Shown here piece after piece: positions 14,257-37,940 of a stretch of 64,000 nt of DNA (positions are counted from its first letter, which is position 1; the number at the start of each line of letters is the position of its first letter). The notes under the pieces were generated by a model. The model was given only the letters and a program-made list of their open reading frames with translations, did no database searches and was not told the origin of the DNA. Source of the stretch: Intestinimonas butyriciproducens (GTDB lineage: Bacteria; Bacillota; Clostridia; Oscillospirales; Oscillospiraceae). A program made the translations under genes and the position numbers. The stretch covers positions 868,001 to 932,000 of the forward strand of contig NZ_CP011524.1 of NCBI RefSeq assembly GCF_004154955.1, written 5' to 3'.

Positions 14257-14295
14257 CGGGCGGACGGACGCCGTCAGAACAAGGAGGAAGAGTGT

Positions 14296-14880
14296 ATGTG
14301 CAAGGACGGGATTCGGGTTGTTATCGCGGATGACGAACCCATCACCCGGATGGATTTGAAGGAATTGCTGAGCGAAGAGGGATATCAGGTGGTGGGAGAG
14401 GCCGCAGACGGCTTCGACGCCGTGGAGGCCTGCAAGCAGAGCCGGCCCGACCTGGTGCTCATGGATATCAAGATGCCCCTTCTGGATGGACTGTCCGCGG
14501 CCAAGATCCTGTTTGAAGAGAACTTGGCCGACACGGTGATGATGCTCACGGCGTACAGTGAGCGGGAATTCGTGGACGAGGCCAAACATATCGGGGTGGC
14601 CGGATATCTGGTCAAGCCCATCGATGAAAAGTCTCTGGTGCCCAGTATTGAGCTGGCGGTGGCCCGCAGCAAGGACATGAGGAAGCTGCGCAAGGATATG
14701 GAAAAGGTGTCGGAGCGGCTGGAAAACCGCAGCATCATCGAAAAGGCCAAGGGGCTGGTCATGACCCGGGAGGGAATGACCGAACAGGACGCCTATGACT
14801 ATATCCGCAAACTTTCCCAGACGAAGAACCTGTCTATGCGCCGCGTATCGGAAATCATCCTCCTGAAGTCGGGGGGGTGA
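14296..14880 (+). CDS. eutV: ANTAR-domain response regulator EutV (copy 1)
   Basis: 194 residues. Receiver domain with acidic pair D12-D13, phospho-acceptor D57 (LVLMDIKMP) and GYLVKP lysine; a coiled linker; then a C-terminal ANTAR RNA-binding domain (EKAKGLVMTREGMTEQDAYDYI...MRRVSEIIL). EutV binds paired hairpins in eut leaders and prevents terminator formation when phosphorylated by EutW in response to ethanolamine. Its stop is 5 bases before eutW. Likely targets in this window are the leaders before eutG, eutA and the orphan ANTAR gene. Confidence 0.95.
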   Translation: MCKDGIRVVIADDEPITRMDLKELLSEEGYQVVGEAADGFDAVEACKQSRPDLVLMDIKMPLLDGLSAAKILFEENLADTVMMLTAYSEREFVDEAKHIGVAGYLVKPIDEKSLVPSIELAVARSKDMRKLRKDMEKVSERLENRSIIEKAKGLVMTREGMTEQDAYDYIRKLSQTKNLSMRRVSEIILLKSGG

Positions 14881-14884
14881 CGGG

Positions 14885-16309: not shown

Positions 16310-16336
16310 CGCCGGGGAAGAAAACGGTGCGTTGCA

Positions 16337-16376
16337 GCCCGAATGCGTGGGATTTTTCCGCGCGTTCGGGCCTTTT
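16337..16376 (+). terminator. Terminator between eutW and eutA
   Basis: Stem gcccgaatgcg / cgcgttcgggc followed by cctttt. It lies 28 bases after eutW and 42 bases before eutA, so it either ends the regulator transcript or acts as an attenuator for the catabolic genes. Confidence 0.75.
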
Positions 16377-16417
16377 CTATTGGTGGAACCAATTATGAAG
16401 GGAAGCAGGTGAATGCC

Positions 16418-17848: not shown

Positions 17849-17864
17849 CGAGAGGTGAAGTAGC

Positions 17865-19235: not shown

Positions 19236-19252
19236 GGGAGGAGGTGTGATTC

Positions 19253-20140
19253 ATGGATGAGAAAGATCTGAGAACAATCATTGAGCAGGTACTCAGCGAA
19301 ATGAACGTCGGCAGCACCACTGCCGCAGAGACGGGCGCATGCTCCAAGGTGTGCGACAAGCCCGCCAACATCGAGGATGGCTGCATCCCCGATATCACCG
19401 AGGTGGACATCCGTTCACAGTATTTGGTGGAGCACCCTGAGCATGGCGAAGAGTACGCCGAGCTGAAGATGAACGCCCCCTGCCGTCTGGGCATTGGAAA
19501 GGCCGGCGCCCGCTATAAGACCCTACCCCAGTTGGAGTTCCGTGCCGCCCACTCCGCGGCGCAGGACGCCGTATTCAACGACGTGGATGAGAAAATGGTG
19601 GAGGATCTGGGCCTCTTCATCGTGCAGACCCAGTGTGACTGCAAGGACACCTATCTGACCCGCCCTGATCTGGGCCGTAAGCTCAGTCCGGAGGGTGTGG
19701 CCACGATTAAAGAAAAGTGCAAGAAGAATCCCACGGTCCAGATTTACGTCTCCGACGGACTCTCCTCTGCCGCGGTGGCCGCCAACATCCCCGATCTGCT
19801 GCCCGCCATTCTTCAGGGCCTGCAGAACTATAAGATCGATGTGGGTACGCCCTTCTTTGTGAAGTACGGCCGCGTGGGCGTGATGGATGAGATCTCCGAG
19901 ATCACCGGCGCCGAAGTCACCTGCACCCTGATCGGTGAGCGTCCGGGCCTCATCACCGCTGAATCTATGTCCGCCTACATCGCCTACAAGGCCACCGTGG
20001 GTATGCCCGAGGCACGCCGTACCGTGGTGTCCAACATCCACAGAAACGGCACCATTCCTGCCGAAGCCGGTGCCCATATCGCCGACATCATTAAGATCAT
20101 GCTGGAGAAGAAGGCCAGCGGTACGGATCTGAAACTGTAA
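19253..20140 (+). CDS. eutC: Ethanolamine ammonia-lyase small subunit EutC (copy 1)
   Basis: 295 residues. The first 18 residues (MDEKDLRTIIEQVLSEMN) form an amphipathic helix of the kind that targets EutC to the microcompartment lumen; then a variable linker and the B12-binding Rossmann-like core (YVSDGLSSAAV, VKYGRVGVMDE, IGERPGL, NIHRNGTIPAEAGAH). Together with EutB it makes the (BC)6 lyase. Strong GGGAGGAGG ribosome site. Confidence 0.97.
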   Translation: MDEKDLRTIIEQVLSEMNVGSTTAAETGACSKVCDKPANIEDGCIPDITEVDIRSQYLVEHPEHGEEYAELKMNAPCRLGIGKAGARYKTLPQLEFRAAHSAAQDAVFNDVDEKMVEDLGLFIVQTQCDCKDTYLTRPDLGRKLSPEGVATIKEKCKKNPTVQIYVSDGLSSAAVAANIPDLLPAILQGLQNYKIDVGTPFFVKYGRVGVMDEISEITGAEVTCTLIGERPGLITAESMSAYIAYKATVGMPEARRTVVSNIHRNGTIPAEAGAHIADIIKIMLEKKASGTDLKL

Positions 20141-20162
20141 GGAGTAGGGAGGAAATTCTACC

Positions 20163-20813
20163 ATGAAAAGAGATCCCGTAAGAGCAAGCGTACTGGCGAC
20201 CAAGCTCATCCCCAACGTGGCGCCGGATATGGCCAAGGAGCTGGGCCTTCTGCCTGGCGAGAAGTCCTTGGCCCTGATCACGTCCGACTGTGATGATGTG
20301 ACCTATACCGCCCTGGACGAGGCCACGAAGAAGGCCGACTGCCGCGTGGCGTATGCCAAGAGCTTCTACGCCGGCGCGGCCAACGCCAACACCAAGCTGG
20401 CCGGCGAGATCATCGGCATCCTGGCCGCCCCCAACCCCGCGGAGGCGAAGGCCGGTCTGGCCGCCTGCGTGGATATGATCGAGAACGTGTGCCACTTCGT
20501 CTCGGCCAATGAGGACGACACCATCGTGTACTATGCCCACTGCATCTCCCGCACGGGTTCCTACCTGTCCGAGGGAGCGGGGATCGCGGAGGGAGAGGCG
20601 CTGGCGTATCTGATCGCGCCCCCTCTGGAGGCGATGTACGGAGTGGATGCGGCGCTGAAGGCGGCGGATGTGCGCCTGTGCGTGCTGTACGCGCCCCCCA
20701 GCGAGACCAACTTCGGCGGGGGCCTGCTGACCGGCAGCCAGTCCGCCTGTAAGTCCGCCTGCGACGCCTTCGCCGCCGCGGTGGAGTTCGTGGCCGACAA
20801 TCCCATCGAGTAA
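20163..20813 (+). CDS. eutL: Shell protein EutL (copy 1), tandem BMC domains
   Basis: 216 residues, two permuted BMC domains forming a trimer with a gated central pore (EutL knowledge). MKRDPVRASVLATKLIPNV at the start and CVDMIENVCHFVSANEDDTI are typical. From about 20235 to the end it differs from the copy at 32858 by only about eight bases, while the first 72 bases differ more. Confidence 0.96.
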   Translation: MKRDPVRASVLATKLIPNVAPDMAKELGLLPGEKSLALITSDCDDVTYTALDEATKKADCRVAYAKSFYAGAANANTKLAGEIIGILAAPNPAEAKAGLAACVDMIENVCHFVSANEDDTIVYYAHCISRTGSYLSEGAGIAEGEALAYLIAPPLEAMYGVDAALKAADVRLCVLYAPPSETNFGGGLLTGSQSACKSACDAFAAAVEFVADNPIE

Positions 20814-20877
20814 ACCCCATCGCCTGATGTTCAAAAGATAGGACCGCTTTGCGGCGGTCCAAAGATGGAGGTACTGA

Positions 20878-21456
<579 letters not shown>

Positions 21457-21519
21457 GATCCGCTGAATGCGCGGCTGAGGCCGCGCGGACCCATCCCCCT
21501 GAAGAGGAGAGTTGATTAT

Positions 21520-23004
21520 ATGCAGCTTTACGACAAAGACCTGCTGTCCATGCAGGAGGTCCGTGAGCTGGTGGAGGCGGCAAAGGAGGCCCAAAAGGAA
21601 CTGGCCAATATGTCCCAGTCCCAGGTGGACCACATTGTCCGCGCCATTGCCGACGCCGGTGTACGCAACGCCCGGCGCCTGGCGGAGATGGCTCATGAGG
21701 ACACCGGGTTCGGCAAGGTCGAGGATAAGATCATCAAGAACATCTTCGGCAGCCGGGGCGTCTATGAGTACGTCAAGGACATGAAGACCGTCGGCGAGTT
21801 GGAGCGGGACGAGGAGAAGAAGGTCCGCACCATCGCCGTTCCCGTGGGCGTCATCGCCGGTCTGGTCCCTTCCACCAATCCTACTTCCACTGCCCTTTAT
21901 AAGGCGGAGATCGCCATCAAGGCGGGCAACGCCATCGTGTTCTCCCCCCATCCCACGGCCCTGCGGTGCATCTCCGAGACCGTGAAGGTGATCCGTCAGG
22001 CCATCTCCGAGGCCGGCGGCAATGAGAACCTGGTGTCCTGTATCACCATTCCCACCATGGAGGCCACCGACAATCTGATGCGCCACCGTGATGTGGCCAT
22101 GATCCTGGCCACTGGCGGCTCCGCCATGGTGCGCGCGGCCTATTCCTCCGGCACTCCCGCCATCGGTGTAGGTCCCGGCAACGGGCCCGCCTATCTGGAG
22201 AAGACCTGTGATCTTCCCTTGGCAGTCAAGCGTATTATGGACTCCAAGACCTTTGACAACGGCACCATCTGCGCCTCCGAACAGTCCATTATCTGCGACG
22301 AGGATATGGTGCCCGCTGTCCGGGCCGAGATGGAAAAGCAGGGCGCTTACTTCCTCAATGAGTCTGAGCGGGAAAAGCTGGGCAGATACATCCTTCGCGC
22401 CAACGGGACCATGAACCCCGAGATCGTGGGCCGCAGCGTGGAGACCATTGCCAGGCTGGCGGGACTCACCGATGTTCCCGCCACCGCCCGTGTGCTGGTG
22501 GCCGCTGAGGACGGCGTGGGCCGCGGACATCCCTATTCCAATGAGAAGCTGGCCCCCATCCTGGCCTTCTACACGGGCACCGACTACAAGGACGTATGCG
22601 AGAAGGTCTGCACCATCCTTCGCTATGAAGGCGCGGGCCACACCTTCTCCATGCACACCAAGAACGACGAGATGGTGGACTATTTTGCCAAGCGGGTCCC
22701 CGCCTCCCGCATCATGGTGAATACCCCCAGCGCCCTTGGCGGCATCGGCGGCACCACCGGCCTCATGCCCGCGCTGACCCTGGGCTGCGGCGCTGTGGGC
22801 GGCTCCGCCACTTCCGAGAACGTGGGGCCCATGCAGCTCCTCAATACCCGCAAGGTGGCCTATGGGCTCAAAGAACTGGAGGACATCCGTGACAGTGTGC
22901 CCGACTGCTCCGACGGCATCTGCCGCGTCCGGGGCGGAGATTTGAGCACGGCGGACGTGGAGGATATCGTCCGTGCCATCATGGCCCGTCTCCAGAACGC
23001 ATAA
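21520..23004 (+). CDS. eutE: Acetylating acetaldehyde dehydrogenase EutE
   Basis: 494 residues. Aldehyde dehydrogenase fold with catalytic Cys251 in NGTICASEQS and nucleotide-binding GVGPGNGPAY. Converts acetaldehyde, NAD+ and CoA to acetyl-CoA. The C-terminal 20 residues (DVEDIVRAIMARLQNA) form an amphipathic helix separated from the core by a linker, consistent with an encapsulation peptide. EutE N-terminal targeting, used in other groups, is less obvious here. In the operon between two shell-protein genes. Confidence 0.95.
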   Translation: MQLYDKDLLSMQEVRELVEAAKEAQKELANMSQSQVDHIVRAIADAGVRNARRLAEMAHEDTGFGKVEDKIIKNIFGSRGVYEYVKDMKTVGELERDEEKKVRTIAVPVGVIAGLVPSTNPTSTALYKAEIAIKAGNAIVFSPHPTALRCISETVKVIRQAISEAGGNENLVSCITIPTMEATDNLMRHRDVAMILATGGSAMVRAAYSSGTPAIGVGPGNGPAYLEKTCDLPLAVKRIMDSKTFDNGTICASEQSIICDEDMVPAVRAEMEKQGAYFLNESEREKLGRYILRANGTMNPEIVGRSVETIARLAGLTDVPATARVLVAAEDGVGRGHPYSNEKLAPILAFYTGTDYKDVCEKVCTILRYEGAGHTFSMHTKNDEMVDYFAKRVPASRIMVNTPSALGGIGGTTGLMPALTLGCGAVGGSATSENVGPMQLLNTRKVAYGLKELEDIRDSVPDCSDGICRVRGGDLSTADVEDIVRAIMARLQNA

Positions 23005-23033
23005 GTACGAGATATTTTTAGGAGGAAACTAAT

Positions 23034-23321
23034 ATGGCAACTCAGCAGGCACTGGGCATGATCGAGACCAAGGGTCTCGTCTCTTCCATCGAGGCGGCCG
23101 ACGCCATGGTCAAGGCCGCCAACGTCACCCTCATCGGCAAGGTCCATGTGGGCGGCGGTCTGGTGACCGTGATGGTCCGCGGGGACGTGGGCGCCGTCAA
23201 GGCGGCCACCGACGCGGGTGCAGCCGCGGCCGAGCGCGTGGGCGAGCTCATTTCCGTCCATGTCATCCCCCGTCCCCACGAGGAAGTGGAGTACATTCTC
23301 CCCTCCCTGGATAAGCAGTAA
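23034..23321 (+). CDS. eutM: Shell protein EutM (copy 1)
   Basis: 95 residues, one canonical BMC (Pfam BMC) domain forming the main hexameric facet tile: [39 protein letters not shown] and the C-terminal [22 protein letters not shown] lies 8 bases before the ATG. It is almost identical to the next gene. Confidence 0.96.
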
Positions 23322-23356
23322 CCATTTTTCCCATCCCCTCCCGCGGCGGGGAAGCG

Positions 23357-23399
23357 CCCCGGGACCGGCAGTCCGGTCCCGGGGGCCCGCCCGGACTGC
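23357..23399 (+). repeat. Overlapping GC hairpins between the two eutM genes
   Basis: Arms 23357-23368 and 23373-23384 form a perfect 12-bp stem (ccccgggaccgg). Alternatively 23368-23376 pairs with 23391-23399 (gcagtccgg / ccggactgc). The two share bases and exclude each other. No T-run, so an mRNA-processing or stability element rather than a terminator is likely. Confidence 0.65.
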
Positions 23400-23431
23400 G
23401 GGGAGGAGACTAGTTTAGGAGAGTGCTGGAT

Positions 23432-23716
23432 ATGGCAACAATGCAAGCTCTGGGCATGATCGAGACCAAGGGTCTCGTGGCCTCTATCGAAGCGGCCGAC
23501 GCCATGGTCAAGGCCGCCAACGTTACCCTCATCGGCAAGGTCCACGTGGGCGGCGGTCTGGTGACCGTGATGGTCCGCGGGGACGTGGGAGCTGTCAAGG
23601 CGGCCACCGACGCCGGCGCGGCCGCGGCCGAACGTGTGGGCGAGCTGATCTCTGTCCATGTGATTCCCCGTCCCCATGAGGAAGTGGAGTATATCCTCCC
23701 CTCCCTGGATAAGTAA
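23432..23716 (+). CDS. eutM: Shell protein EutM (copy 2)
   Basis: 94 residues, differing from copy 1 at only a few positions near the N-terminus and at the last residue. ATG at 23432 ([14 protein letters not shown]) matches the family; AGGAG lies 11 bases upstream, and a GTG at 23423 is too close to that site. Two nearly identical major shell tiles next to each other point to dosage or a recent duplication. Confidence 0.95.
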
Positions 23717-23763
23717 AACAGCGTAAGCTGTAAATAAACCAACCGACGGAGGGGGTGAAGCGC

Positions 23764-24570
23764 TTGAAATGTATCACAGAGGATGCCCTGCGGTGTGAGC
23801 TGCGGGCCACAGAGCCCGAGTGCTATGTCATTCCGGAGGGAAAGATCCTCACCCCGGCTGCGCGGGAGTATCTGCAGTCCAGGAAAATCAAGATCGTAAA
23901 GGCGGGACAGCAGGAGAAGACCCGCATCGTCGCCACCGAGGTGCCACCTATGCCCGAGGTGACGATGGCCGCGCCCACATCGGCGCCCGCGCCCCAGCCC
24001 CAGGCGGTCAAGCCCAAGTTTGTGGACTATGAGACCGGCGCCTTCTATATGGAGAAGCCGGAACATATGACCCATCTGGTGGGGAATGTACTGGTGGTGA
24101 AAAACCATCCCCGCATTCTCTTCCGGGGCAAGCTGGACTCCCTGCAGAGCCTGTTTGTGCTCGCGCAGGTGGAGATCCACGAGCACGGCGGCAGCCAGGC
24201 CCTGATCGACGATCTGGACGACGTGCTGAACATCCTGCGGGAAATGATGCGCTGCGATGTGCTGGATGAGCCCTTCACGATGGAGAAGATGATCGGCCTC
24301 ACCCATGCGGAGCTGCGGGAACAGTCCCATGACCCGAAGCGCTTCTTCGGAGTCAAGGCCATGGTGCTGCCCGATTACACCATGGGTAAGGACTTTGCAC
24401 TGCTCAATCAGTTGCGCACGGCGGTACGCGAGACCGAGGTGGCTGCGGCGGAGGCCTTCCACGATGGCGCCAAATATACCCGGGGCGATATCATTGAGGA
24501 GCTTAACCGGATGTCCAGCGCCATGCACATCATGATGTGCCGCTATCTGGCCGGGCAGTATCAGAATTGA
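23764..24570 (+). CDS. eutT: Corrinoid adenosyltransferase EutT
   Basis: About 268 residues. Transfers the 5'-deoxyadenosyl group of ATP to cob(I)alamin to make the AdoCbl needed by EutBC. N-terminal KCITEDALRCELR and LTPAAREYLQSRKIKI match EutT, followed by a Pro/Ala linker and the helical transferase core (EIHEHGGSQALIDDLDDVLNIL). The CC of the HX11CCxxC motif of Salmonella EutT is not seen; only MMRC follows, so it may not use Fe(II) the same way. TTG start at 23764 gives best ribosome-site spacing; a GTG at 23755 is the alternative. Confidence 0.88.
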   Translation: MKCITEDALRCELRATEPECYVIPEGKILTPAAREYLQSRKIKIVKAGQQEKTRIVATEVPPMPEVTMAAPTSAPAPQPQAVKPKFVDYETGAFYMEKPEHMTHLVGNVLVVKNHPRILFRGKLDSLQSLFVLAQVEIHEHGGSQALIDDLDDVLNILREMMRCDVLDEPFTMEKMIGLTHAELREQSHDPKRFFGVKAMVLPDYTMGKDFALLNQLRTAVRETEVAAAEAFHDGAKYTRGDIIEELNRMSSAMHIMMCRYLAGQYQN

Positions 24571-24602
24571 ATTCAAAACCCAATTAAAGGAGCGCCGAGA
24601 GC

Positions 24603-25421
24603 ATGATGGATCTGGACCGCGTAAACGCATATATGGCCCGTGTGGAGGAGTCGGAGACCAAGACCTTCCAGCCTGTCGGCAGTAAGCTGAAGGTGGGGCT
24701 GGACCTTGGCACGGCCTATATCGTTATGGTCGTCCTGGATGAGGAGAACAATCCGATCGCCTGTGAGAAGCAGGCGGCTCAGGTCCTGCGGGACGGCGTG
24801 GTAGTGGATTATTCCGGGGCGCTCCGCATCGTCAAGGAACTCAAGGCCAAGCTGGAGGAGCGCCTGGGCACGGAGCTGATGAACTGCGCCATCGCGATGC
24901 CTGCGGGCACCGAGTCCAGCGTCAAGACCCACCAGTATGTGGCCGAGGGGGCCGGATTCGAGGTCACGAACGTCCTGGATGAGCCCTCCGCCGCCAACTC
25001 GATCTACCAGATCGAGGATGGCGTGGTGGTGGACATCGGCGGCGGGACCACCGGCCTTGCCATCCTGAAGGACGGTAAGGTGGTCCAGATTGAGGATGAG
25101 CCCACCGGAGGCACCCATCTCACCTTGGTACTGGCGGGAAATTTCCACGTCCCCTTCCAGGAGGCCGAGGCCATCAAGCAGGATTATTCCCGCCACAAGG
25201 AGATTCTGCCGGTGGTAAAGGCGGTCGTCGAGAAGATGGCGTCCATTGTGAACCGCTATATCGATAAGGAACACACCGACGCCATCTATCTGTGCGGCGG
25301 CACCTGTTGTCTGACGGGGATCGAAAAGATCTTCGAAAAAGAGACGGGGATCAGGACCATCAAGCCGGCGAACCCGTTCCTGGTGACGCCTGCGGGCATC
25401 GCCATGAACTGCAAAATCTGA
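24603..25421 (+). CDS. eutJ: EutJ chaperone-like ASKHA protein
   Basis: 272 residues. Actin/Hsp70-like ATPase fold with KVGLDLGTAYIVMVVLD near residue 30 and VVVDIGGGTTGLAI near 138, plus YLCGGTCCLTGIE. EutJ is found in nearly all eut loci and is supposed to assist assembly or EutBC function, but its role is unproven. GGAG 10 bases before the ATG. Confidence 0.93.
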   Translation: MMDLDRVNAYMARVEESETKTFQPVGSKLKVGLDLGTAYIVMVVLDEENNPIACEKQAAQVLRDGVVVDYSGALRIVKELKAKLEERLGTELMNCAIAMPAGTESSVKTHQYVAEGAGFEVTNVLDEPSAANSIYQIEDGVVVDIGGGTTGLAILKDGKVVQIEDEPTGGTHLTLVLAGNFHVPFQEAEAIKQDYSRHKEILPVVKAVVEKMASIVNRYIDKEHTDAIYLCGGTCCLTGIEKIFEKETGIRTIKPANPFLVTPAGIAMNCKI

Positions 25422-25446
25422 ATGTTTTTAGAAAGGAGGGGAAGGC

Positions 25447-26202
25447 ATGGATCATAATGCCATCGTGGACGAGATCTTGCGGCGCGTAGCCGAGAAGATT
25501 TCAGAAGCGGAAGGCGGCAGCGCCGATTGTGGGGAGTGCAGTGACTGCGGCGACAAGCCAGGACTGCTGATCCTCACCCAGGATCACGGTACAGCCTGCC
25601 ATGCCATGCTGGAAAGCGAGGCCCTGAAAGCCCACTACAGCACGGATTGCGCGCTCATGCACCACTATGAAGTGGATTTGAACAACTTTGAGGCCGTGAT
25701 CCTCTTCAACCTGACCTGCGACGCCCTTTGTAAGCTGGCGTCGGGCACCTGTGACAGCGCATATACCCGTCTTGCCTCCCAAGCCATCCTCTCAGGTAAA
25801 AAGGTCTACATTCCCACCGAAGAGGTGGAGTTGTACCAGTACAAGGAGACGGCACCCGCTGCCTACTATCATATGATGCAGCAGAAGCTGGATCTGTTGG
25901 TGGCCTCCGGCGTGGTCGTCTGTGCGCAGGCCAGCCTGGAACAGGTCATTCTCGGCGCGGCGGAACCCGCCCCTGTTCCGGCGGCAGCGCCTGCGGTGCC
26001 GGAGTGCGCCTGCTCGGCGCCGATGTGCGCAGAGCAAAAGGAACTGCGCATCGACAAGCGGGTACTCACCGAAAAGGATCTGATTGAGGCCAATATGGCC
26101 GGGGTCACCTGTATCCGCATCAGCGAGAAATGTATCATCACCGCCCTTGCAAAGGACGCCGCCAAAGACCGCGGCATGAGCATCGTCAAGGACGAGGCGT
26201 GA
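25447..26202 (+). CDS. Eut-locus hypothetical protein with flavoprotein-like domain
   Basis: 251 residues. I believe this is the Firmicutes ethanolamine-utilisation hypothetical family (TIGR02536 type), always found next to eutN in such loci. Residues 1-18 (MDHNAIVDEILRRVAEKI) are an amphipathic helix like those on EutC and EutQ, suggesting it is lumenal. A flavoprotein/decarboxylase-like Rossmann domain follows (GLLILTQDHG, AVILFNLTCDALCKLASG), then a Pro/Ala/Cys linker and a C-terminal piece (RVLTEKDLIEA). Rich in cysteine (about 14). Function unknown. Confidence 0.75.
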   Translation: MDHNAIVDEILRRVAEKISEAEGGSADCGECSDCGDKPGLLILTQDHGTACHAMLESEALKAHYSTDCALMHHYEVDLNNFEAVILFNLTCDALCKLASGTCDSAYTRLASQAILSGKKVYIPTEEVELYQYKETAPAAYYHMMQQKLDLLVASGVVVCAQASLEQVILGAAEPAPVPAAAPAVPECACSAPMCAEQKELRIDKRVLTEKDLIEANMAGVTCIRISEKCIITALAKDAAKDRGMSIVKDEA

Positions 26203-26277
26203 TGACGCCGGGGATCGGGAGAGCGCCCTGCGCTCTCCCGGACTTGGCCGCCCAACAGTCAAACAGGGGGACAGCAT

Positions 26278-26562
26278 ATGAAAGTCGCAAAAGTCATCGG
26301 CAACATCTGGGCTACCCGCAAAGAGGAAAAGCTGGCCGGCTATAAGCTGCTCATCGTGCAGCCCATCAATATCCTGGACGGCTCCAAAGACAAGACGCCC
26401 ATCGTGGCCGCCGATATCATTGGAGCCGGTGTGGGCGAGACGGTCATCATCGTCGGCGGAAGCTCGGCCCGGAGCGCGGCCGGGGACATGGCGGTCCCCG
26501 TTGACGCCACTGTGGTGGGTATCGTGGACGACCAGGAGATCGACTCCAGCATTTTGGACTAA
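26278..26562 (+). CDS. eutN: Shell vertex protein EutN
   Basis: 94 residues of the EutN/CcmL pentamer family that caps microcompartment vertices: KVIGNIWATRKEEKLAGYKLL, VAADIIGAGVGETVIIVGGSSAR and AVPVDATVVGIVDD are diagnostic. It is the only EutN-like gene in the window. Confidence 0.96.
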   Translation: MKVAKVIGNIWATRKEEKLAGYKLLIVQPINILDGSKDKTPIVAADIIGAGVGETVIIVGGSSARSAAGDMAVPVDATVVGIVDDQEIDSSILD

Positions 26563-26587
26563 GGTAAGGGATTAAGGCGGTGAAAGC

Positions 26588-27937
26588 ATGAATCTGACCG
26601 AAGCAGTCAAGGCAGCCGGTATCGTCGGCGCAGGCGGCGCTGGGTTTCCCACCCACGTCAAGCTGAACGCCAAGGCCGAATGCTTTGTGGTCAACGCCGC
26701 AGAGTGCGAGCCTCTCATCGAGACAGATAAATATCTGTGCCGCACCTATGCGGACGAGATCATCGCCGCAGTGGCCGCCGTGGCCACCCATCTGGGGGCC
26801 GAACGGGCGGTGATCGCATTGAAAGGAAAGTATAGGGCTGAGATTGCCGCACTTTCCGATGCCATCGGGCGCATGGGCGCCCAAGTGGAGATATTTGAGA
26901 TGGGGACCTTCTATCCCGCAGGCGACGAGCAGACCATGGTCCAGCAGGTCACGGGCCGCTCGGTCCCGGAGCGGGGCCTCCCGCTGGACGTGGGATGCGT
27001 AGTGGACAACGTGGGCACCCTGCTCAATATCTTCGACGCCCTGCAGGGTAAAAACGTTACCGATAAGTTCCTCTCCGTGGTGGGCGAGGTAAAGGCTCCC
27101 ATCATGCTCCACGTTCCCGTGGGCACCGCCATTACCGAGTGTGTGGCGGCGGCAGAGCCGACCATCGGCGCGTATTCTTTGATCCTGGGCGGACCCATGA
27201 TGGGCAAGGTCCTGGAGGACCAGGCGGCCATTGAGGCAGCTGTGGTCACCAAGACTACTGGCAATATCATTGTCCTTCCCAAGGACCACTATTTGTTCCG
27301 CCGGGCAGCACTCCCTATGGCAGCCATCCGGCATCAGACCAGAAGCGCCTGTATTCAGTGCCGCATGTGCACCGACCTCTGCCCCCGCTACCTCATTGGT
27401 CACCAGATCCGCCCCAATCTGGTGATGCGGAATCTCTGGCGTGAGGAGGGGATGGAGGACAACGAGGAATATCTTCGGGCGTTTGGAGATGCGGCAAACT
27501 GCTGCGACTGCGGCGTTTGTGAGATGTTCGCCTGCCCCATGGGGCTCTCTCCGAGAAAAGTGAACCAGTACATCAAAGGGCAGCTCCGCTCCCGTGGTAT
27601 CCAGGTCCCGCGGAACATGGAGCCGCAGGCAAGAGAGTTTGTGGATCAGCGGCACACGCCCACGGACCGGCTGGTGGCTCGTCTGGGCCTCAGCCAATAT
27701 TACGGGCTCCACGCCCATACGTGTAAGGAACTGCACCCAGAGACGGTGTTCGTCGCCTTCTCACAGCACATTGGGAAGCCCGCAATCCCGGTAAAGGCAG
27801 CGGGCGACCATGTGGAGAAAGGCGAATTGTTGGCGCAGGCGGCGGAAGGCTTGTCTGCGAATATCCACGCCAGCATTGCCGGCGTGGTGGAGGAGATCAC
27901 CGAAAAAGGCGCCCGCATCCGCGGTCGGAAGGAGTGA
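26588..27937 (+). CDS. PduS-like Fe-S flavoprotein, probable cobalamin reductase
   Basis: 449 residues. RnfC/NuoF-like: N-terminal GIVGAGGAGFPTHVK, FMN/NAD-binding fold, an SLBB-like segment, then two ferredoxin-type clusters CIQCRMCTDLCP near residue 258 and CCDCGVCEMFACP near 305, and a C-terminal lipoyl-like hairpin (GDHVEKGELLA). PduS reduces cob(III)alamin to cob(II)alamin and feeds the adenosyltransferase. It is coupled to the PduT-like gene: its stop is 6 bases before that start. Confidence 0.9.
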   Translation: MNLTEAVKAAGIVGAGGAGFPTHVKLNAKAECFVVNAAECEPLIETDKYLCRTYADEIIAAVAAVATHLGAERAVIALKGKYRAEIAALSDAIGRMGAQVEIFEMGTFYPAGDEQTMVQQVTGRSVPERGLPLDVGCVVDNVGTLLNIFDALQGKNVTDKFLSVVGEVKAPIMLHVPVGTAITECVAAAEPTIGAYSLILGGPMMGKVLEDQAAIEAAVVTKTTGNIIVLPKDHYLFRRAALPMAAIRHQTRSACIQCRMCTDLCPRYLIGHQIRPNLVMRNLWREEGMEDNEEYLRAFGDAANCCDCGVCEMFACPMGLSPRKVNQYIKGQLRSRGIQVPRNMEPQAREFVDQRHTPTDRLVARLGLSQYYGLHAHTCKELHPETVFVAFSQHIGKPAIPVKAAGDHVEKGELLAQAAEGLSANIHASIAGVVEEITEKGARIRGRKE

Positions 27938-27942
27938 GAAGC

Positions 27943-28494
27943 ATGGGAAACGCCAGCAGACTTGCCATCGGCATGGTGGAACTCAACAGCATCGCCAGGG
28001 GCATCGAAACCTGCGATTACATGGTGAAGGCGGCCCAGGTGGACCTCATCCGCTCCTCCACCGTCTGCCCCGGCAAGTACATGATCCTGATCGCCGGCGA
28101 CACCGGCGACGTAAAAGCCTCCATGGCTGAGGGAATCAAGCGGGGCGGAGAGTGCGTGGTGGACACCCTGACCCTCCCCAACGTGCATCCTCAGGTCATT
28201 CAGGCCATCAGCATGACCACGCAGGTAGAAAAGCCGGGTGCCGTGGGCGTTCTGGAGTTTTACTCTGTGGCCTCCGCCATTACGGCCGCCGATGTGGCTG
28301 CCAAGGCGGCCAATATCACCCTCATTGAGGTCCGCATCGGCTACGCCATCGGCGGCAAGGGCTATGTGACCCTGACCGGTGATGTGGGTGCGGTCCGGGC
28401 GGCTGTGGCCGCGGCGGAGCGGGAGGCGGAGCTCCTGGTGGGTACCACGGTCATCCCCAGGCCGTCGCCTAAGCTATTCCAGTCCCTGCTGTAA
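27943..28494 (+). CDS. PduT-like shell protein, tandem BMC with Fe-S cysteine
   Basis: 183 residues, two BMC domains (about 1-90 and 95-180), which assemble as trimers. Cys42 in STVCPGKYM matches the pore cysteine (Cys38 in PduT) whose three copies bind a [4Fe-4S] cluster at the centre of the trimer. Directly after the PduS-like gene, so the pair probably conducts electrons across the shell. ATG at 27943 has GGAG 8 bases upstream. Confidence 0.9.
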   Translation: MGNASRLAIGMVELNSIARGIETCDYMVKAAQVDLIRSSTVCPGKYMILIAGDTGDVKASMAEGIKRGGECVVDTLTLPNVHPQVIQAISMTTQVEKPGAVGVLEFYSVASAITAADVAAKAANITLIEVRIGYAIGGKGYVTLTGDVGAVRAAVAAAEREAELLVGTTVIPRPSPKLFQSLL

Positions 28495-28554
28495 GCAAAA
28501 CGGAGGGGCAGCCCTCCGAAACCGATTCATCAAGAGAAGGAGAAGGAGCATAAT

Positions 28555-29784
28555 ATGGATTTTAGTGAACTGATTGCTGCTGCCGACCCCAGTGTCTTTA
28601 CCGAGAGTATTTCCGCATGGATCTCCGGTATTTCCATCAACTCCGTGATCATGATGATCATGATGATCTTCATGCTCGTAGGCGCCATCGATAAGATCTG
28701 CGGCAACAAGCTGGGTTACGGCGAAAAGTTTGAGGAAGGCTTCAACGCCATGGGCCCTCTGGCCATGTCCATGGCCGGCGTTGTGGCGGCCGCCCCGGTG
28801 CTGTCCATGCTGCTGGGCCCCATCCTGAAGCCCATTTACGGCATCTTCGGAGCCAGCCCCGCCATGTTCGCCACCACCCTGCTGGCCTGTGACATGGGCG
28901 GTTATCCTCTGGCCATGCAGCTGGCCGAGGGCGACGTAGCCATTGGAAACTTTGCCGGCCTGATTCTGGGCACCATGATGGGCCCCACCATCGTGTTTAC
29001 CATCCCAGTGGCTCTGGGCATCATCAAGAAGGAAGACCGCGGCTATCTGGGTGCCGGCGTCCTGGCCGGTCTCATCACCGTGCCCATTGGCTGTATTGTC
29101 GGCGGCCTGATGATGAATACCCTGGCCCCAGAGTATCACCTCAACTTCATCACCATCATCCAGAACCTGATCCCCGTAATCATCATCGCGGCCCTGATCG
29201 TCCTCGGCCTGTGGTTCGCCCCCGGTCCCATGATCAACGGCTTTAACAAGTTCGGCACCGGCGTTACCATCGTGATCACCGCCCTCACCGCCATCGCGGT
29301 GTTCGAGCAGATCACCGGTATCATGTTCCCCGTGTTCCACATCATGGTGGAGAACCCCGCCGACGGCTCCCGCGGCCTGGACAGCGGCCTGCTGACCTGC
29401 GGTCAGATCGCCATCGTCCTCATCGGCGCGTTCCCCATGGTGGAGTGGATCACCCGTACCTTCGGCAAGCCCCTGGAGAAGATCGGCGCCGCTCTGGGCA
29501 TGAACGAGCAGGGCTCTGCCGGCATGGTGGCCAATCTGGCCAACAACATCGCCATGTTCAACATCATGGGCGAGATGAACCCGAAGGGCAAGCTGCTGAA
29601 CGTGGCCTTCGCCGTGTCTGCCGCCTTTGTGTTCGGCGATCACCTGGGCTTTACCGCTGGCAACAACCCCGACATGATCTTCCCTGTGATCGTGGGCAAG
29701 CTGGTGGCTGGTGTTACCGCCATTATCGTGGCCAATATTCTGGCCCCCAAACTGCTGGCTAAGATCGAGAACGTAAAGTTCTGA
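28555..29784 (+). CDS. eutH: Ethanolamine transporter EutH
   Basis: 409 residues, about 10-11 membrane helices. ISINSVIMMIMMIFMLVGAIDKI at the start and the repeated small-residue/Met-rich segments (VAAAPVLSMLLGPIL, FATTLLACDMGGYPLAMQLA) match EutH. Facilitates ethanolamine entry, mainly important at low pH or low ethanolamine. AAGGAGAAGGAG ribosome site. Confidence 0.95.
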   Translation: MDFSELIAAADPSVFTESISAWISGISINSVIMMIMMIFMLVGAIDKICGNKLGYGEKFEEGFNAMGPLAMSMAGVVAAAPVLSMLLGPILKPIYGIFGASPAMFATTLLACDMGGYPLAMQLAEGDVAIGNFAGLILGTMMGPTIVFTIPVALGIIKKEDRGYLGAGVLAGLITVPIGCIVGGLMMNTLAPEYHLNFITIIQNLIPVIIIAALIVLGLWFAPGPMINGFNKFGTGVTIVITALTAIAVFEQITGIMFPVFHIMVENPADGSRGLDSGLLTCGQIAIVLIGAFPMVEWITRTFGKPLEKIGAALGMNEQGSAGMVANLANNIAMFNIMGEMNPKGKLLNVAFAVSAAFVFGDHLGFTAGNNPDMIFPVIVGKLVAGVTAIIVANILAPKLLAKIENVKF

Positions 29785-29817
29785 CAACAAGACCGCCTGG
29801 AAAGGTAAGGAATCGCT

Positions 29818-30258
29818 ATGAATGTAAGTGAAGAACTCATCCGCAGCATCGTGGAAAAGGTCCTCTCGGAGACGGCCGCCGCGTCCTCCTGCGGCTGTGG
29901 CTTTGAGAAGCACGTCGATCCCAGCGGCGTACTCAGCGTCAAGACCTCCACCGTGAAGCTGGAGCCCTTTGAGGGGCGGAACGACGTCAAGCTCAAGGAT
30001 GTAGCCACTCTGGAAGAGGCGCCCCGCATGGGTTGCGGCATCATGGAGCTCACCGACGGAGCCGACTTCGAGTGGACCCTGACCTATGACGAGTGGGACA
30101 TCGTGCTGGAAGGCCGTCTGGAGATCAAGATCGACGGGCGTGTGGTAGGCGGAGATGCCGGAGACGTCATCTACATCCCCAAGGGTAGCCATATCCATTT
30201 CAGCACCCCCGATCACGCCAAATACGCCTATACCGTGTTCCCTGCCGACTGGCAGTAA
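29818..30258 (+). CDS. eutQ: EutQ cupin protein
   Basis: 146 residues. N-terminal amphipathic helix (NVSEELIRSIVEKVLSE) resembles the lumen-targeting helices of EutC, then Cys-rich CGCGF and a cupin barrel (GCGIMELTDGADFEW, EGRLEIKIDGR, GDVIYIPKGSHIHF). Salmonella EutQ has acetate kinase activity in vitro. Last gene of the main eut operon before a strong hairpin. Confidence 0.92.
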   Translation: MNVSEELIRSIVEKVLSETAAASSCGCGFEKHVDPSGVLSVKTSTVKLEPFEGRNDVKLKDVATLEEAPRMGCGIMELTDGADFEWTLTYDEWDIVLEGRLEIKIDGRVVGGDAGDVIYIPKGSHIHFSTPDHAKYAYTVFPADWQ

Positions 30259-30368: not shown

Positions 30369-30397
30369 AAAACCAGCCAAGCTGACAACTGAATCAT

Positions 30398-30570: not shown

Positions 30571-30580
30571 GCACGAGAGA

Positions 30581-32073: not shown

Positions 32074-32110
32074 GTTGTTGAAAGGCCCCTTGGGGGATGT
32101 GTGGTGGAAT

Positions 32111-33508: not shown

Positions 33509-33583
33509 GCATACGGCTGGATTGCCCCGCGCACAGCCGTACGGGGAGGCCGAGGCTGAAAAGAATGTGACGGGGGGATGGAT

Positions 33584-34180
33584 ATGGCGGACCAGGAACG
33601 TGAGAAGACCGTCCTTCTGGTGGACGACGACCGCCCGATCCGGGAGGGGCTGCGACGTTTTTTCGACGGAACGTCCTACCGCGTGGCGGGGGAGGCCGCC
33701 GACGGGATGGCAGCGGTGGCGCTGTGCCGGAAGCTGCGGCCCGACCTGGTGCTTTTGGATGTGAAAATGCCCCTGCTGAACGGGATCGACGCCGCGCGGC
33801 TGATTCGGGAGGAGCGCAGCGCCCGGTGCATCGTGATGCTTACCTCCTTTGATGACCAGTCCTGCGTGGAGCAGGCCCTCGCGGCGGGGGCCGCGGGCTA
33901 TCTCACAAAGCCTTTGCGGGCGGAGGACATCCTGCCCACCCTGGAGCTCTGTCTGAGCCATACCAAGGAGTATTATCTGCTGGAGAAGAACTGCGGAAGC
34001 CTGAAGCGTCGGCTGGCCAGCCGGGAGATCGTGGATCTGGCCAAGCTGACCGTCATGGAGGAGCGCGGTCTTACCGAGGAGGAGGCCTATGTGCTGATCC
34101 GGGAGCTGAGCCGGCGAAAAAACCTCTCCATGGAGCAGGTTGCGCGTTCGATCCTGGAGAAAGGGGAGGCGCCCCTGTGA
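33584..34180 (+). CDS. eutV: ANTAR response regulator EutV (copy 2)
   Basis: About 198 residues. Complete receiver (LLVDDDRPIRE, phospho-acceptor in LVLLDVKMPLLNG, MLTSFDD, GYLTKP) and ANTAR domain (VDLAKLTVMEERGLTEEEAYVLI...MEQVARSIL). ATG at 33584 has GGGGG six bases upstream; the ATG at 33578 directly abuts that site. Its stop overlaps the GTG start of the kinase in GTGA, so the pair is translationally coupled. Confidence 0.92.
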   Translation: MADQEREKTVLLVDDDRPIREGLRRFFDGTSYRVAGEAADGMAAVALCRKLRPDLVLLDVKMPLLNGIDAARLIREERSARCIVMLTSFDDQSCVEQALAAGAAGYLTKPLRAEDILPTLELCLSHTKEYYLLEKNCGSLKRRLASREIVDLAKLTVMEERGLTEEEAYVLIRELSRRKNLSMEQVARSILEKGEAPL

Positions 34181-35547
34181 ATCAGATTACCCGTATTTTG
34201 TGCCAGAAGTATACCGATCTCACCGACGATGAGATCTCTTACCTGGAAGAGTATAATAAGACGCTCCAGGCCCTGGCCAACGCCGCCCAGGCCGATGTGT
34301 TCATTGATTGCCGCTCCTGCACGGGGAAGTCGGCCATCGTGGTGGGGGAGGCCAAGCCCCAGACGGTGGCCTCGTCCTACTCCAAGCCGCTGCTGGGAAT
34401 GCCTATGAATTGGCTGGACGAGCCGGCCATGGAGCGTTCCTTTCGGTTGGGGGTGCCCACGATCGGAAGAAAGGCCGTGTCGGTCCCCGAAAATGGAAGA
34501 GTGGTCCAGACCGTGGAGCCCATTTTTTTCGAGGGGCGGCTCATTGCTGTATTGATCTATGAAAAGAAAGCGTCGCTGGCGCCGGAGGTGATCTCCTCTG
34601 TGCCGGATGGGGATAGGTCCTTCCAGGCGGGGGACAGTCAATGGCTGGCCCAGGTCATTGATGAGGCTGTGCTGCTGGTGGACACCGGAAATATGGTTTG
34701 CGCGTGCAACAGTGCGGCCCGGGAACTTTATCGGCGGCTGGGCTATGTCAGCGATATTTTGGGAATGTCTGCGGCCAACATCCTGTTGGATGTGGAAGGC
34801 GCAGAGGCGGATGGAGGCTGGCGGGAGATCGCCACCGGCGACTGTGTCCTGCGCTACCGTCAGGTGGAGCTGGAGCGGGACAACATCCGCTATGCGCTGG
34901 TCATTCAAGATATCACCGAACTCCGGCGGCAGGAGAAGGAGGCCAGACTCCAGGCCATGGCCGTCCGGGAGCTCCGCCATCGGATGAAAAACAGCATCCA
35001 GCTCCTGGCCTCCCTCCTCCGCTACCAAGAGGAGAACGCGGCGCTTCCAGAGGTGCAGTCCGTTTTGCGGGATACCGCCGGACGCATTTTATCTCTCAAT
35101 ATTACGCTGGAGGAGGCCCTGGCACAAAATGCGCAGGATGAACTCTCCCTGCGGGGGGTGCTGGAGCGGGTGCGCACCAATATTCTGCAAAACTCATTGG
35201 GGCCAGCCCGGCCTGTGACCATCCGGGTCTGTGGAGACGATCTGCGTGTCTCCGCCGAGGCGGCCTCTGCGATCTCCCTGGTAGTCAACGAGCTGGTGCA
35301 GAACGCGGTCAAACACGCGTTCCCGGCCGGGCGCGCGGGTGTTATCCTCATTGAACTCATCAAAACGCCGCTGTTCTCCCGCATCTCGGTCCGGGATAAC
35401 GGCGTGGGCATGGACCCGGACCGGGCGGAAGGGGATACCCTTGGCCTGGGGCTGGTCCGCACCATGGTCCGGGAGAAGCTGAACGGTGAGCTGACCATTC
35501 AATCCGACAAAGGAGGGACCACGGTAGTTTTTGATTTTATCGCCTGA
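34177..35547 (+). CDS. eutW: Sensor histidine kinase EutW (copy 2)
   Basis: 456 residues, cytosolic, same domain order as copy 1: N-terminal sensory domain (CQKYTDLTDDEISYLEEYN, FIDCRSCTGKSAIVVGEAKP), PAS-like region (VLLVDTGNMVCACNSAARELY), HisKA_2 helix RELRHRMKNSIQLLASLL with the catalytic His, and HATPase (NELVQNAVKHAFP, DNGVGMDPD, LGLGLVRTMV). The sensory domain is clearly diverged from copy 1 (for example RSCTGKS against PSEDGDA), so the ligand could differ. Confidence 0.92.
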   Translation: MNQITRILCQKYTDLTDDEISYLEEYNKTLQALANAAQADVFIDCRSCTGKSAIVVGEAKPQTVASSYSKPLLGMPMNWLDEPAMERSFRLGVPTIGRKAVSVPENGRVVQTVEPIFFEGRLIAVLIYEKKASLAPEVISSVPDGDRSFQAGDSQWLAQVIDEAVLLVDTGNMVCACNSAARELYRRLGYVSDILGMSAANILLDVEGAEADGGWREIATGDCVLRYRQVELERDNIRYALVIQDITELRRQEKEARLQAMAVRELRHRMKNSIQLLASLLRYQEENAALPEVQSVLRDTAGRILSLNITLEEALAQNAQDELSLRGVLERVRTNILQNSLGPARPVTIRVCGDDLRVSAEAASAISLVVNELVQNAVKHAFPAGRAGVILIELIKTPLFSRISVRDNGVGMDPDRAEGDTLGLGLVRTMVREKLNGELTIQSDKGGTTVVFDFIA

Positions 35548-35702
35548 ACGCAAAAAATAGAGAGCCCCATGCCGACCTAAAGAAAGGCGGCGAAGGACGG
35601 GCCGAAGCGATGCAGCTCGGAGACAGCGGAAACCGCTGCCTCTGAGCTTTTTTGCTTTTTTGTCCCGAAAATCACAGCATAAAAAGGAAGGGAGTACCGA
35701 GC

Positions 35703-37070
35703 ATGAAGCTGAAAACGAGCCTCAACGGAAAGACCTATGAGTTCAAAAGCATTGCGGATGTCCTCGCCAAGGCCAACGAGCCCAAGTCCGCGGACCGCTT
35801 CCAGGGGATCGCGGCGGAGACGGCCTCCGAGCGCGTGGCGGCCAAGATCGTCCTCTCGGAGATGACGGTGGAGGAGCTCACAGAACATCCCACGCTGCCC
35901 TATGAGACGGATGAGGTCACCCGAGTGAACCTTGACGGGCTGAACCGCCCCATGTATGAGCGGTTCAAGAGCAAGACCATCGGCGAGCTGCGGGAGTGGG
36001 TCCTGGACCACCGCACTACCAGCGAGGAGCTGGGCCGGGCCGGACGGGCCTTCACCGGAGAGGTGGTGGCCGCCGTGGCAAAGCTGATGTCCACCCTGGA
36101 CCTGGTGTATGGGGCCAGCAAGATCCACCGGCCCACCAAGTGCGTGACCGAAATCGGACTTCCCGGAACACTGTCCTATCGGTTGCAGGCAAATAGCCCT
36201 ACAGACGATGTGCAGGGAATTTTGATCGGTGTGATGGAAGGGCTCACCTACGGCAGCGGAGATGCCTGCCTGGGCATCAATCCTGTGACCGACGACCCGG
36301 AGACCACTAGGCGGATCGCGGACGGCCTGTGGAACCTGGTGGTCAAGAACAGCATTCCAACTCAGATTACCGTACTCTCCCATATCACCACACAGATGGA
36401 GTCGGTACGGCAGGGCGCGCCGCTGTCTATGTTCTTCCAGTCCATCGCCGGGACCCAGGAGGCCAATGACAATTTCGGCGTGAACCGCGCGCTTTTGGAG
36501 GAGGCATACGCGCTGGCGAGGGAGAAATGCACCGGCCTGGGCCCCAATCTCCTCTACTTTGAGACCGGGCAGGGCTCCGAGGCGTCCATCGGCGCCGACG
36601 GCGGCGTGGATGAGATGACGCTGGAGGCAAGGACCTACGGTTTTGGCCGGTACTTCAACCCGTTCATGGTCAATAATGTCTCCGGCTTTATCGGGCCCGA
36701 GACCTTGTACGACGGCAAGGAGATGATCCGGGCCAATCTGGAGGACCACTTTATGGGCAAGCTCATCGGTCTGCCCATGGGTATGGCGCCCTGCTACACC
36801 AACCACACCTCCATCACCCAGGACGACCAGGAGATGGCCACCGCGCTGCTGGCCATGGCGGGAGCCAATTACTATATGGGCGTTCCCGTGGGAGACGACG
36901 TGATGCTCTCTTACCAGGACACCAGCTTTCATGACGACGCCACCCTGCGGGAGCTGACCCACCGGCTGCCCGCACCGGAATTCCACAGGTGGATGATGAA
37001 GATGGACCTGATGGACGAAAATGGTATCCTCACCGCCCGGGCGGGCGACGGCTCTATTTTCCTGAAATAA
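35703..37070 (+). CDS. Ethanolamine ammonia-lyase large subunit paralogue EutB (copy 2), active-site Asp replaced
   Basis: 455 residues, full length and intact. RLQ, the Asn of LGINPVTDD, the Phe of FFQSIAGTQ and the Glu of YFETGQGS are conserved, but the block MGCDACYTNH of copy 1 reads MGMAPCYTNH here. Thus residue 362, the Asp that holds the substrate amine in E. coli EutB (Asp362), is Ala (codon gcg, 36786-36788). Either the substrate differs from ethanolamine, or another residue replaces the carboxylate, or activity is altered. ATG at 35703 follows GGAAGGGAG. Confidence 0.9.
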   Translation: MKLKTSLNGKTYEFKSIADVLAKANEPKSADRFQGIAAETASERVAAKIVLSEMTVEELTEHPTLPYETDEVTRVNLDGLNRPMYERFKSKTIGELREWVLDHRTTSEELGRAGRAFTGEVVAAVAKLMSTLDLVYGASKIHRPTKCVTEIGLPGTLSYRLQANSPTDDVQGILIGVMEGLTYGSGDACLGINPVTDDPETTRRIADGLWNLVVKNSIPTQITVLSHITTQMESVRQGAPLSMFFQSIAGTQEANDNFGVNRALLEEAYALAREKCTGLGPNLLYFETGQGSEASIGADGGVDEMTLEARTYGFGRYFNPFMVNNVSGFIGPETLYDGKEMIRANLEDHFMGKLIGLPMGMAPCYTNHTSITQDDQEMATALLAMAGANYYMGVPVGDDVMLSYQDTSFHDDATLRELTHRLPAPEFHRWMMKMDLMDENGILTARAGDGSIFLK

Positions 37071-37085: not shown

Positions 37086-37940
37086 ATGATGAATACAGAG
37101 CAACTGACAGAACTGATCCGAAAGGCCGTACAGGAGGTGACGGGCGGGATACCGCCGGTATCTCCTGCCGTTGATCCCGGCGAGGTGCCCGACCTCTCCA
37201 AAGTGGACTTGCGGGCCGAGCTGGCTGTACCTGACCCGGCCAACGCCGAGGAGTATCTCAACATGAAGGCCCGTACCCCGGCTCGGCTGGGCGTATGGCG
37301 GGCGGGACCGCGCTACAGGACCAAGACATACCTGCGCTTCCGCGCAGACCATGCGGTGGCGATGGACGCGGTGTTTACCGACGTCCCCGAGGACTTCCTG
37401 GCAGCCAACGGGCTCTTTCAGGTCACTACGCGGTGCACCTCCAAGGATGAATTTCTCACGCGGCCCGACTTGGGACGGCTCCTCGACCCGGATACCGTCG
37501 CCACGCTGAAGAGCAAATGCAAGGCGAATCCCCAGGTGCAGGTGTACGTATCCGACGGGCTTTCCAGTACAGCTGTGGAGGCCAATATCCCCGATCTGCT
37601 GCCGGCGCTGCTGCAGGGCCTCAAATCCCAGCACATCGAGGCGGGGACTCCCTTCTATGTAAAGTATGGGCGGGTCGGGGCCATGGATGAGGTGGCCAAG
37701 GCCTTGGGCAGTGAGGTCACCATTGTCCTATTGGGAGAGCGTCCGGGGCTGGCCACTGGAGAATCCCTCAGCGCCTATATGACCTACAGGGGCTATCCGG
37801 GGATGCCGGAGGCGGGCCGCACGGTGGTCTCCAACATCTACCAGGGTGGCACCAACCCGGCTGAGGCGGGCGCCCATATTGCCTCCATCGCAAAAAAAAT
37901 GCTGGAACAAAAGGCCAGCGGCGTAGATCTGAAGATGTAA
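37086..37940 (+). CDS. Ethanolamine ammonia-lyase small subunit paralogue EutC (copy 2)
   Basis: 284 residues. N-terminal amphipathic helix (NTEQLTELIRKAVQEV) again suggests targeting into the microcompartment; B12-binding core conserved (YVSDGLSSTAV, VKYGRVGAMDE, LGERPGL, NIYQGGTNPAEAGAH). Follows the second EutB by 15 bases; the two surely form one enzyme. It shares most core motifs with copy 1 but differs in the region between the helix and core. Confidence 0.93.
   Translation: MMNTEQLTELIRKAVQEVTGGIPPVSPAVDPGEVPDLSKVDLRAELAVPDPANAEEYLNMKARTPARLGVWRAGPRYRTKTYLRFRADHAVAMDAVFTDVPEDFLAANGLFQVTTRCTSKDEFLTRPDLGRLLDPDTVATLKSKCKANPQVQVYVSDGLSSTAVEANIPDLLPALLQGLKSQHIEAGTPFYVKYGRVGAMDEVAKALGSEVTIVLLGERPGLATGESLSAYMTYRGYPGMPEAGRTVVSNIYQGGTNPAEAGAHIASIAKKMLEQKASGVDLKM

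Follow-up and report, generated by a model that had tools for sequence, protein, structure and literature searches.

A conserved EutB subfamily with an apparent switch of the acid from residue 362 to residue 406, and N-methylated ethanolamines as candidate substrates

The window analysed here, a stretch of 64,000 nucleotides from Intestinimonas butyriciproducens, carries two eutB genes. The canonical copy, eutB1 (17865..19235, +), which served as the comparison gene, lies in a canonical eut shell operon (13810..30258, +) whose genes were named from their translations. The first part of this operon encodes EutP, EutV1, EutW1, EutA, EutB1, EutC1, EutL and EutE, and the rest EutM, EutT, EutJ, EutN, a PduS-like and a PduT-like protein, EutH and EutQ. 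EutE scores 725.2 bits with TIGR02518 (cut-off 620.1). A cobalamin riboswitch (30392-30577, +; Rfam RF00174, 102 bits) sits between EutQ and a gene encoding a xylose-isomerase-like TIM-barrel protein, and may sense B12 and thereby control the EutV regulators. Further downstream are a third EutV-like response regulator (32057-32707, +), with no adjoining kinase, and a second eutL gene (32858-33508, +) that is near-identical to the first (20163-20813, +), with 5 differences in 216 residues as counted by eye. This second eutL directly precedes eutV2-eutW2-eutB2. The response regulator gene eutV2 (33578..34180, +), also named from its translation, is the partner of eutW2 (34177..35547, +), which encodes a histidine kinase with GAF_PdtaS, HisKA_2 and HATPase domains. 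The eutB2 leader (35571..35653, +) has two hairpins, a short one with the loop AAAGAA (35571-35591) and a strong, terminator-like one followed by a run of T (35614-35653). This arrangement matches what we take to be the antitermination target of an EutV regulator and is consistent with control by antitermination; a comparison of the leader with Rfam gave no meaningful match. The eutB2 gene itself (35703..37070, +) encodes a predicted variant lyase large subunit of 455 aa, of the A362/P363/D406 type, and is followed by eutC2 (37086..37940, +) for the small subunit (284 aa; NF003971, 305.3 bits, cut-off 230). The N-terminus of EutC2 is a helix-like tail, presumably resembling a shell-targeting peptide. 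Elsewhere in this genome (G000, 3.22 Mb), a third EutB with D362 is encoded at G000:C1:2611618-2612991, and genome searches found neither an MttB-family gene nor a match to CutC.

Read in the frame of the ATG at 35703, nucleotides 36780-36791 (GGT ATG GCG CCC) encode G360, M361, A362 and P363. Residue 362 is Ala (codon GCG at 36786-36788), and EutB2 reads MGMAPCYTNH where EutB1 reads MGCDACYTNH. At the place of M361-A362-P363 (36783..36791, +), the canonical EutB proteins have (C/V/A)-D-(A/V/C/I). Residue 406 (codon 36918..36920, +) is Asp in EutB2 versus Cys in EutB1, and the subfamily residues N325-V326-S327 (36675..36683, +) correspond to T325-V326-V327 in EutB1. The E. coli contact positions, which we take to be R160, Q162, N193, E287, F329 and 362, are all in register with the EutB2 numbering (offset of 0), and the first five residues are present in EutB2. 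The gene is intact, and its dN/dS of 0.06-0.11 against four orthologues shows purifying selection. An earlier note on this DNA had reported the Ala at position 362, the conservation of the other contact residues, the integrity of the gene and its pairing with its own EutC2 and its own two-component system, and on all these points it proved right. A random loss or decay of D362 is ruled out by the dN/dS values together with the conservation across EutB proteins. We assume that D362 contacts the amino group of the substrate in ethanolamine ammonia-lyase; no statement on this role was found in the open literature, most subscription journals being outside the search. EutB2 belongs to the EutB protein family, its Pfam and NCBIfam matches being EutB only (PF06751, 607 bits, cut-off 25; NF011649, 572.7 bits, cut-off 554), and databases would label it plain EutB. 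Its AlphaFold model (pLDDT 92) has the EutB TIM-barrel fold and matches 3abo_A with a TM of 0.97 (Foldseek). EutB2 is nevertheless unfit for filing as an ethanolamine ammonia-lyase, because the defining contact D362 was looked for and is absent.

To place EutB2 among its relatives, 202 distinct EutB rows were aligned, from searches seeded from both groups (at least 390 residues, identical rows counted once). They consist of 51 M361-A362, 16 I361-A362, 131 canonical and 4 special rows, where canonical means D362 without N325, so that D362 is definitional within that group. All 67 (M/I)361-A362 rows carry N325, S/T327, T334, P363, Q376 and D406, and none of the 131 canonical rows has any of them; R160, Q162, N193, E287 and F329 are kept in the same 67. 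Since Ala362 and Asp406 are found together in 68 of the 202 distinct proteins, A362 in EutB2 is not due to chance. A contig scan with three close orthologues returned 56 loci, 54 of them with the A362-P363 motif and two without it, L074 (MGLDP) and L085 (MGVDV). The idea that MGMAP could define a clade is borne out: after removal of the diagnostic columns, all A362 rows (37/37) are behind a branch with 100% SH-aLRT support. Wider trees, also computed with these columns removed, support the clade at 100/100, 100/98 and 99%, a few nested variants being included. Members of the subfamily are found in Bacillota, Actinomycetota and Synergistota. EutB2 of the window has the diagnostic positions in common with the I361 type and differs from it at positions 345 and 361; as I361 needs two label changes on the 202-row tree, "I361 type" designates a motif and not a proven branch. 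No description of a second EutB type was found in the open literature, with most subscription journals outside the search. L146/L181 (genome G333) and L257 (G738) encode divergent members of the subfamily that combine G362 with D406; G333 has an additional A362 copy, and canonical EutB was not found there. Near F329, the canonical-type EutB of nine EutB2-carrying Oscillospiraceae genomes (L136-L144) reads NDSVVGFIGP in place of VNTVVGFIGP.

Exactly one acid is present at positions 362 and 406 in all 202 rows. The 362/406 pair is A/D in 68 rows, G/D in 2, D/N in 1, and D with T, C, S or A in 131. The special rows are L146 and L257 (G362/D406), L264 (A362-Q363/D406) and L150 (D362/N406). L150 is nested inside the subfamily clade on a tree rooted by an outgroup, and its D362/N406 pair is therefore a switch back. 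With about one origin and one reversal on the tree, the independent 362/406 events are few. The earlier note had implied that the acidic contact was lost, and had named another acid taking over as a result that would speak against its reading. D406 is present whenever residue 362 is non-acidic (202/202 rows), which rules out that the acid was lost altogether in EutB2; at the sequence level, D406 appears to take over. That these proteins form a subfamily with such a switch is, judging from the alignment and trees, very probable. In the predicted structure, residue 362 comes directly after strand 359-361 and residue 406 is in the loop that joins strand 390-394 to helix 409-419. By its secondary structure, the model puts both residues at one end of two adjacent barrel strands, in loops that each have a pLDDT of about 65. 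The constant single acid favours a cationic (amine) substrate, and the diol-like substrate that had also been proposed is disfavoured since every row retains a carboxylate at one of these two positions. As a side observation, locus L180 (5189-9804) of G355, the genome of L150, encodes the D362/N406 EutB of this Acidaminococcales relative with EutC and EutA, and also an acetamidase/formamidase-family protein, amidohydrolases and peptide-type solute-binding proteins. Neither a second EutB nor a close EutE was found in G355. L180 is perhaps an amide-to-ethanolamine route.

A clue to the substrate comes from G474 and G462, two genomes of the same class as G355. Both have a shell operon (L182 in G474, L184 in G462) whose sole EutB is of the I361-A362-P363/D406 type, together with EutM, EutL, EutQ, EutC, EutA, EutT and a PduS-like protein. 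EutB2 is likewise the only EutB seen in operons with EutA or shell genes at L038, L044, L052 and L082. EutE is found in the G474 operon and in the second G462 copy of the shell operon (L200). The canonical EutB of both genomes is in a separate shell operon with a permease, which in G474 is an ethanolamine permease (480 versus a cut-off of 382). In G462, an mttB gene with an in-frame TAG adjoins the EutB2 shell operon. With TAG read as pyrrolysine, its product scores 647.2 bits versus the trimethylamine methyltransferase cut-off of 525, and pyl genes were recognised by eye. In G474, an amber-containing MTTB gene is located about 7 kb past the EutB2 shell operon, and the pylS halves, pylB, pylC and pylD are all above cut-off. 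A corrinoid protein and a choline/ethanolamine-kinase-like protein (PF01633) are encoded in the interval, and the other flank of the operon carries a second MttB-family gene, an APH-type kinase, a corrinoid protein and a pterin methyltransferase. Shell or methylamine genes were not seen around a further I361-A362/D406 EutB of G474 (L183). With 681.2 bits against a cut-off of 620.1, the EutE of L182 classifies as acetaldehyde type, and so does the aldehyde dehydrogenase of L047 (752.1 bits); for L044 (569.9) and L052 (566.9) the acetaldehyde model is the best match, below the cut-off of 620.1. An acetaldehyde-type dehydrogenase in an operon with only EutB2, L182, suggests a two-carbon backbone for the substrate. 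The presence of CutC was considered as a test and is uninformative either way, a full-scoring CutC being found in 2 of 52 EutB2 genomes. G462 is one of the two, and choline cleavage by EutB2 would therefore be redundant there.

The methylamine link was examined in a phylum sample of 398 genomes, of which 36 matched: 14 subfamily carriers, 21 canonical-only genomes, and G1007, which has a broken EutB fragment and was left out of the counts. The 14 carriers are 12 of a kind other than the window's (I361 copies in eleven, M361 in G731), the window genome G000, and G946, which looks like G310 again. MTTB genes are present in all 12 carriers outside the window's kind versus 6 of the 21 canonical-only genomes and, among the matches listed, lie within 20 kb of EutB in 8/12 versus 1/21; the MTTB places of the 21 come from the matches listed and one flank region (G722). 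The eight carriers cover six of the seven families, and seven of the eight nearby genes are amber-interrupted mttB, that of G936 being beside a V361-A362-Q363 copy, again among the matches listed. Fisher P is 5e-5 for presence and 3e-4 for proximity, for a question posed after the pattern was noticed and with genomes of the same family that are not independent. No MTTB was found in G000 or G946, of the window's M361 kind; when both are included, the counts become 12/14 and 8/14 (among the matches listed), with Fisher P of 0.0016 and 0.0009. The fullest gene order is EutB2 shell operon, MttB-family gene, transporter, kinases, amber mttB and regulator, several of these regions having pyl genes. 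In the set of 52 EutB2 genomes used for the MTTB and CutC searches, which is part of those found and includes a near-certain duplicate (G030/G323), MTTB was found outside G474 and G462 in 4 of 50 genomes, and beside EutB2 only in G300 (1.4 kb). The methylamine link is thus not general across the subfamily, and the methylamine neighbours of the I361-type relatives are missing from the window genome and from most of the branch to which it belongs. A canonical D362 Eut operon in G722 (L246) is about 10 kb from methylamine genes (amber mttB, corrinoid protein, choline-kinase-like protein and transporter). This arrangement fits a demethylation-to-ethanolamine route instead, and methylamine and ethanolamine genes can therefore be coupled without EutB2.

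A changed substrate, as the earlier note had proposed, remains the best reading of a distinct clade with fixed residues and an acid at 406. Our explanation, which stands at about even chances, is that EutB2-EutC2 could be the AdoCbl lyase of a separate subfamily acting on N-methylated ethanolamines, choline first. By analogy with the I361-type neighbourhoods, an N-methylated ethanolamine may equally well prove to be the substrate or not, and choline itself is a tentative assignment. A B12-dependent lyase for choline, or an N-methylated ethanolamine, giving a CutC-independent route to trimethylamine, is possible at somewhat less than an even chance; such a B12-dependent choline lyase was not found in the open literature, most subscription journals being outside the search. 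The radical machinery and the hydroxyl-binding residues of EutB2 would be those of ethanolamine ammonia-lyase. The carboxylate at the nitrogen end would have moved from 362, at the end of strand 7, to 406, in the loop after strand 8, side chains 325, 327, 361 and 363 having changed together with it. The pocket would thereby be reshaped for a substituted but still cationic nitrogen. Choline would be cleaved to acetaldehyde and trimethylamine, or N-methylated ethanolamines to acetaldehyde and a less methylated amine. Acetaldehyde would be passed to EutE in the Eut shell encoded by the 13810..30258 operon, and the amine would be excreted in the window organism, as proposed because no MttB-family gene was found in its genome. 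EutV2-EutW2 would induce eutB2. The geometry, catalysis, substrate and induction, and their transfer from the relatives to the M361 type of the window, are what we infer; because EutB2 differs from the I361 type at positions 345 and 361, the substrate is carried over by extrapolation. The polar residues N325 and S327, as read from the sequence, are unexpected for a trimethylammonium pocket and speak against choline.

EutB2 could alternatively be a second ethanolamine ammonia-lyase, in which D406 stands in for D362 with the substrate unchanged, the two lyases being distinguished only by their affinity, their choice of cobamide or their regulation. In favour of this, an acid is retained throughout, EutB2 has the Eut shell in common, and at eight loci (L067, L069, L070, L071, L075, L076, L079 and L081) the gene order is eutA-eutB1-eutB2-eutC; with just one eutC each, these operons may serve plain ethanolamine use. 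EutB2 may also be the sole lyase in the eight of 35 genomes of a second set in which canonical EutB was not found (G333, G334, G337, G338, G339, G345, G352 and G354); neither canonical EutB nor a close EutE was found in G337-G339. These eight and G316, the one genome of a first set with canonical EutB missing, are metagenome-assembled genomes. Against a second ammonia-lyase, both types coexist in 19 of the 20 genomes of the first set and in 27 of the 35 of the second, counts that also exclude EutB2 as a general substitute for a lost EutB1. Several further pocket residues are fixed, EutB2 has its own sensor pair (the eutV2-eutW2-eutB2-eutC2 order of the window recurs at L033, L034, L039 and L040), and two genomes have separate shell operons for the two EutB types. 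On balance we regard this alternative as unlikely. Two of the loci belong to organisms with a described eut system. At L081 (8621-11365), Halanaerobium polyolivorans has tandem eutB1-eutB2 with a single eutC, where the accessible part of the published account describes a single eutBC (PMC10536098). At L040, Flavonifractor plautii has an A362/D406 eutBC beside eutVW-like genes; two eut operons have been described in Flavonifractor, with no A362/D406 variant in the accessible part of that source (PMC7710108). A search of the genome of F. plautii ATCC 29863 found no full-scoring CutC.

The candidates named in the earlier note, 1-amino-2-propanol and 2-amino-1-propanol, as well as serinol, would make EutB2 a lyase for another primary amino alcohol. 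The changes at 325, 327, 361 and 363 could admit a carbon substituent, and a cation still seems required. However, the aldehyde dehydrogenases of L182 and L047 score above the cut-off as acetaldehyde type, and no aminopropanol genes were recognised beside EutB2 at the inspected loci, where methylamine genes were. As the I361-type neighbourhoods favour N-methylated ethanolamines, we consider the amino alcohols improbable. The tandem eutB1-eutB2 with one eutC at eight loci, and the usual presence of EutB1, could also indicate that EutB2 feeds or tunes EutB1, for instance as a non-catalytic subunit of a mixed oligomer; this is very improbable in view of the five contact residues kept in 67/67 rows, of the own EutC2 in the window and at many loci, and of the shell operons of G474 and G462 with only the A362 type. 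A diol dehydratase (e.g. for ethylene glycol) in the Eut shell would fit the acetaldehyde product and a pocket that is more polar by sequence (N325, S/T327), but it is hardly credible with a carboxylate always retained at 362 or 406 and the methylamine gene neighbours left unexplained.

Lyase action on N-methylated ethanolamines, our preferred explanation, can be compared with known systems. EutB2 resembles EutBC of E. coli (3ABO) and Listeria (2QEZ) in fold, contact residues, EutC partner and shell context. It differs from them by A362 with D406, N325, S/T327, T334, P363 and Q376, by a separate clade, by its own sensor pair in the window, and by an identity of 51-55%. CutC is a glycyl radical choline trimethylamine-lyase housed in a shell compartment. 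If the proposed substrate holds, EutB2 would be like CutC in overall reaction and shell handling of the aldehyde, and unlike this glycyl radical enzyme it would be a B12-type TIM-barrel enzyme. According to the accessible part of a published source, the CutC shell compartment converts choline to trimethylamine and acetaldehyde, and Eubacterium limosum demethylates choline with MthK/MthB/MthC/MthA, a route that strips methyl groups and gives no trimethylamine, unlike the one proposed for EutB2; its abstract names no EutB (PMC12155760). In terms of gene kinds, the kinase, MttB-family protein, corrinoid protein and pterin methyltransferase near the EutB2 operon of G474 resemble this Mth system, and so do the kinase and MttB-family relatives near other EutB2 loci, as a likeness of gene kinds and not from protein comparison.

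A whole EutB subfamily thus scores as ethanolamine ammonia-lyase despite what appears, from its residues, to be a rebuilt amine-binding site, and gut-genome tallies of genes for ethanolamine use may therefore be wrong. With the natural 362/406 swap, the way in which a radical B12 enzyme holds its amine in place could be tested cleanly. If EutB2 does cleave choline, microbes would have, besides CutC, a B12-dependent way of making trimethylamine, from which the disease-linked TMAO arises, and surveys for cutC would miss it. Annotation as "ethanolamine ammonia-lyase EutB" would have concealed this choline lyase in databases. Its range would take in Bacillota, Actinomycetota and Synergistota, with Flavonifractor plautii and Intestinimonas among the gut bacteria that carry it, and some lineages would couple it genetically to pyrrolysine-dependent trimethylamine use.
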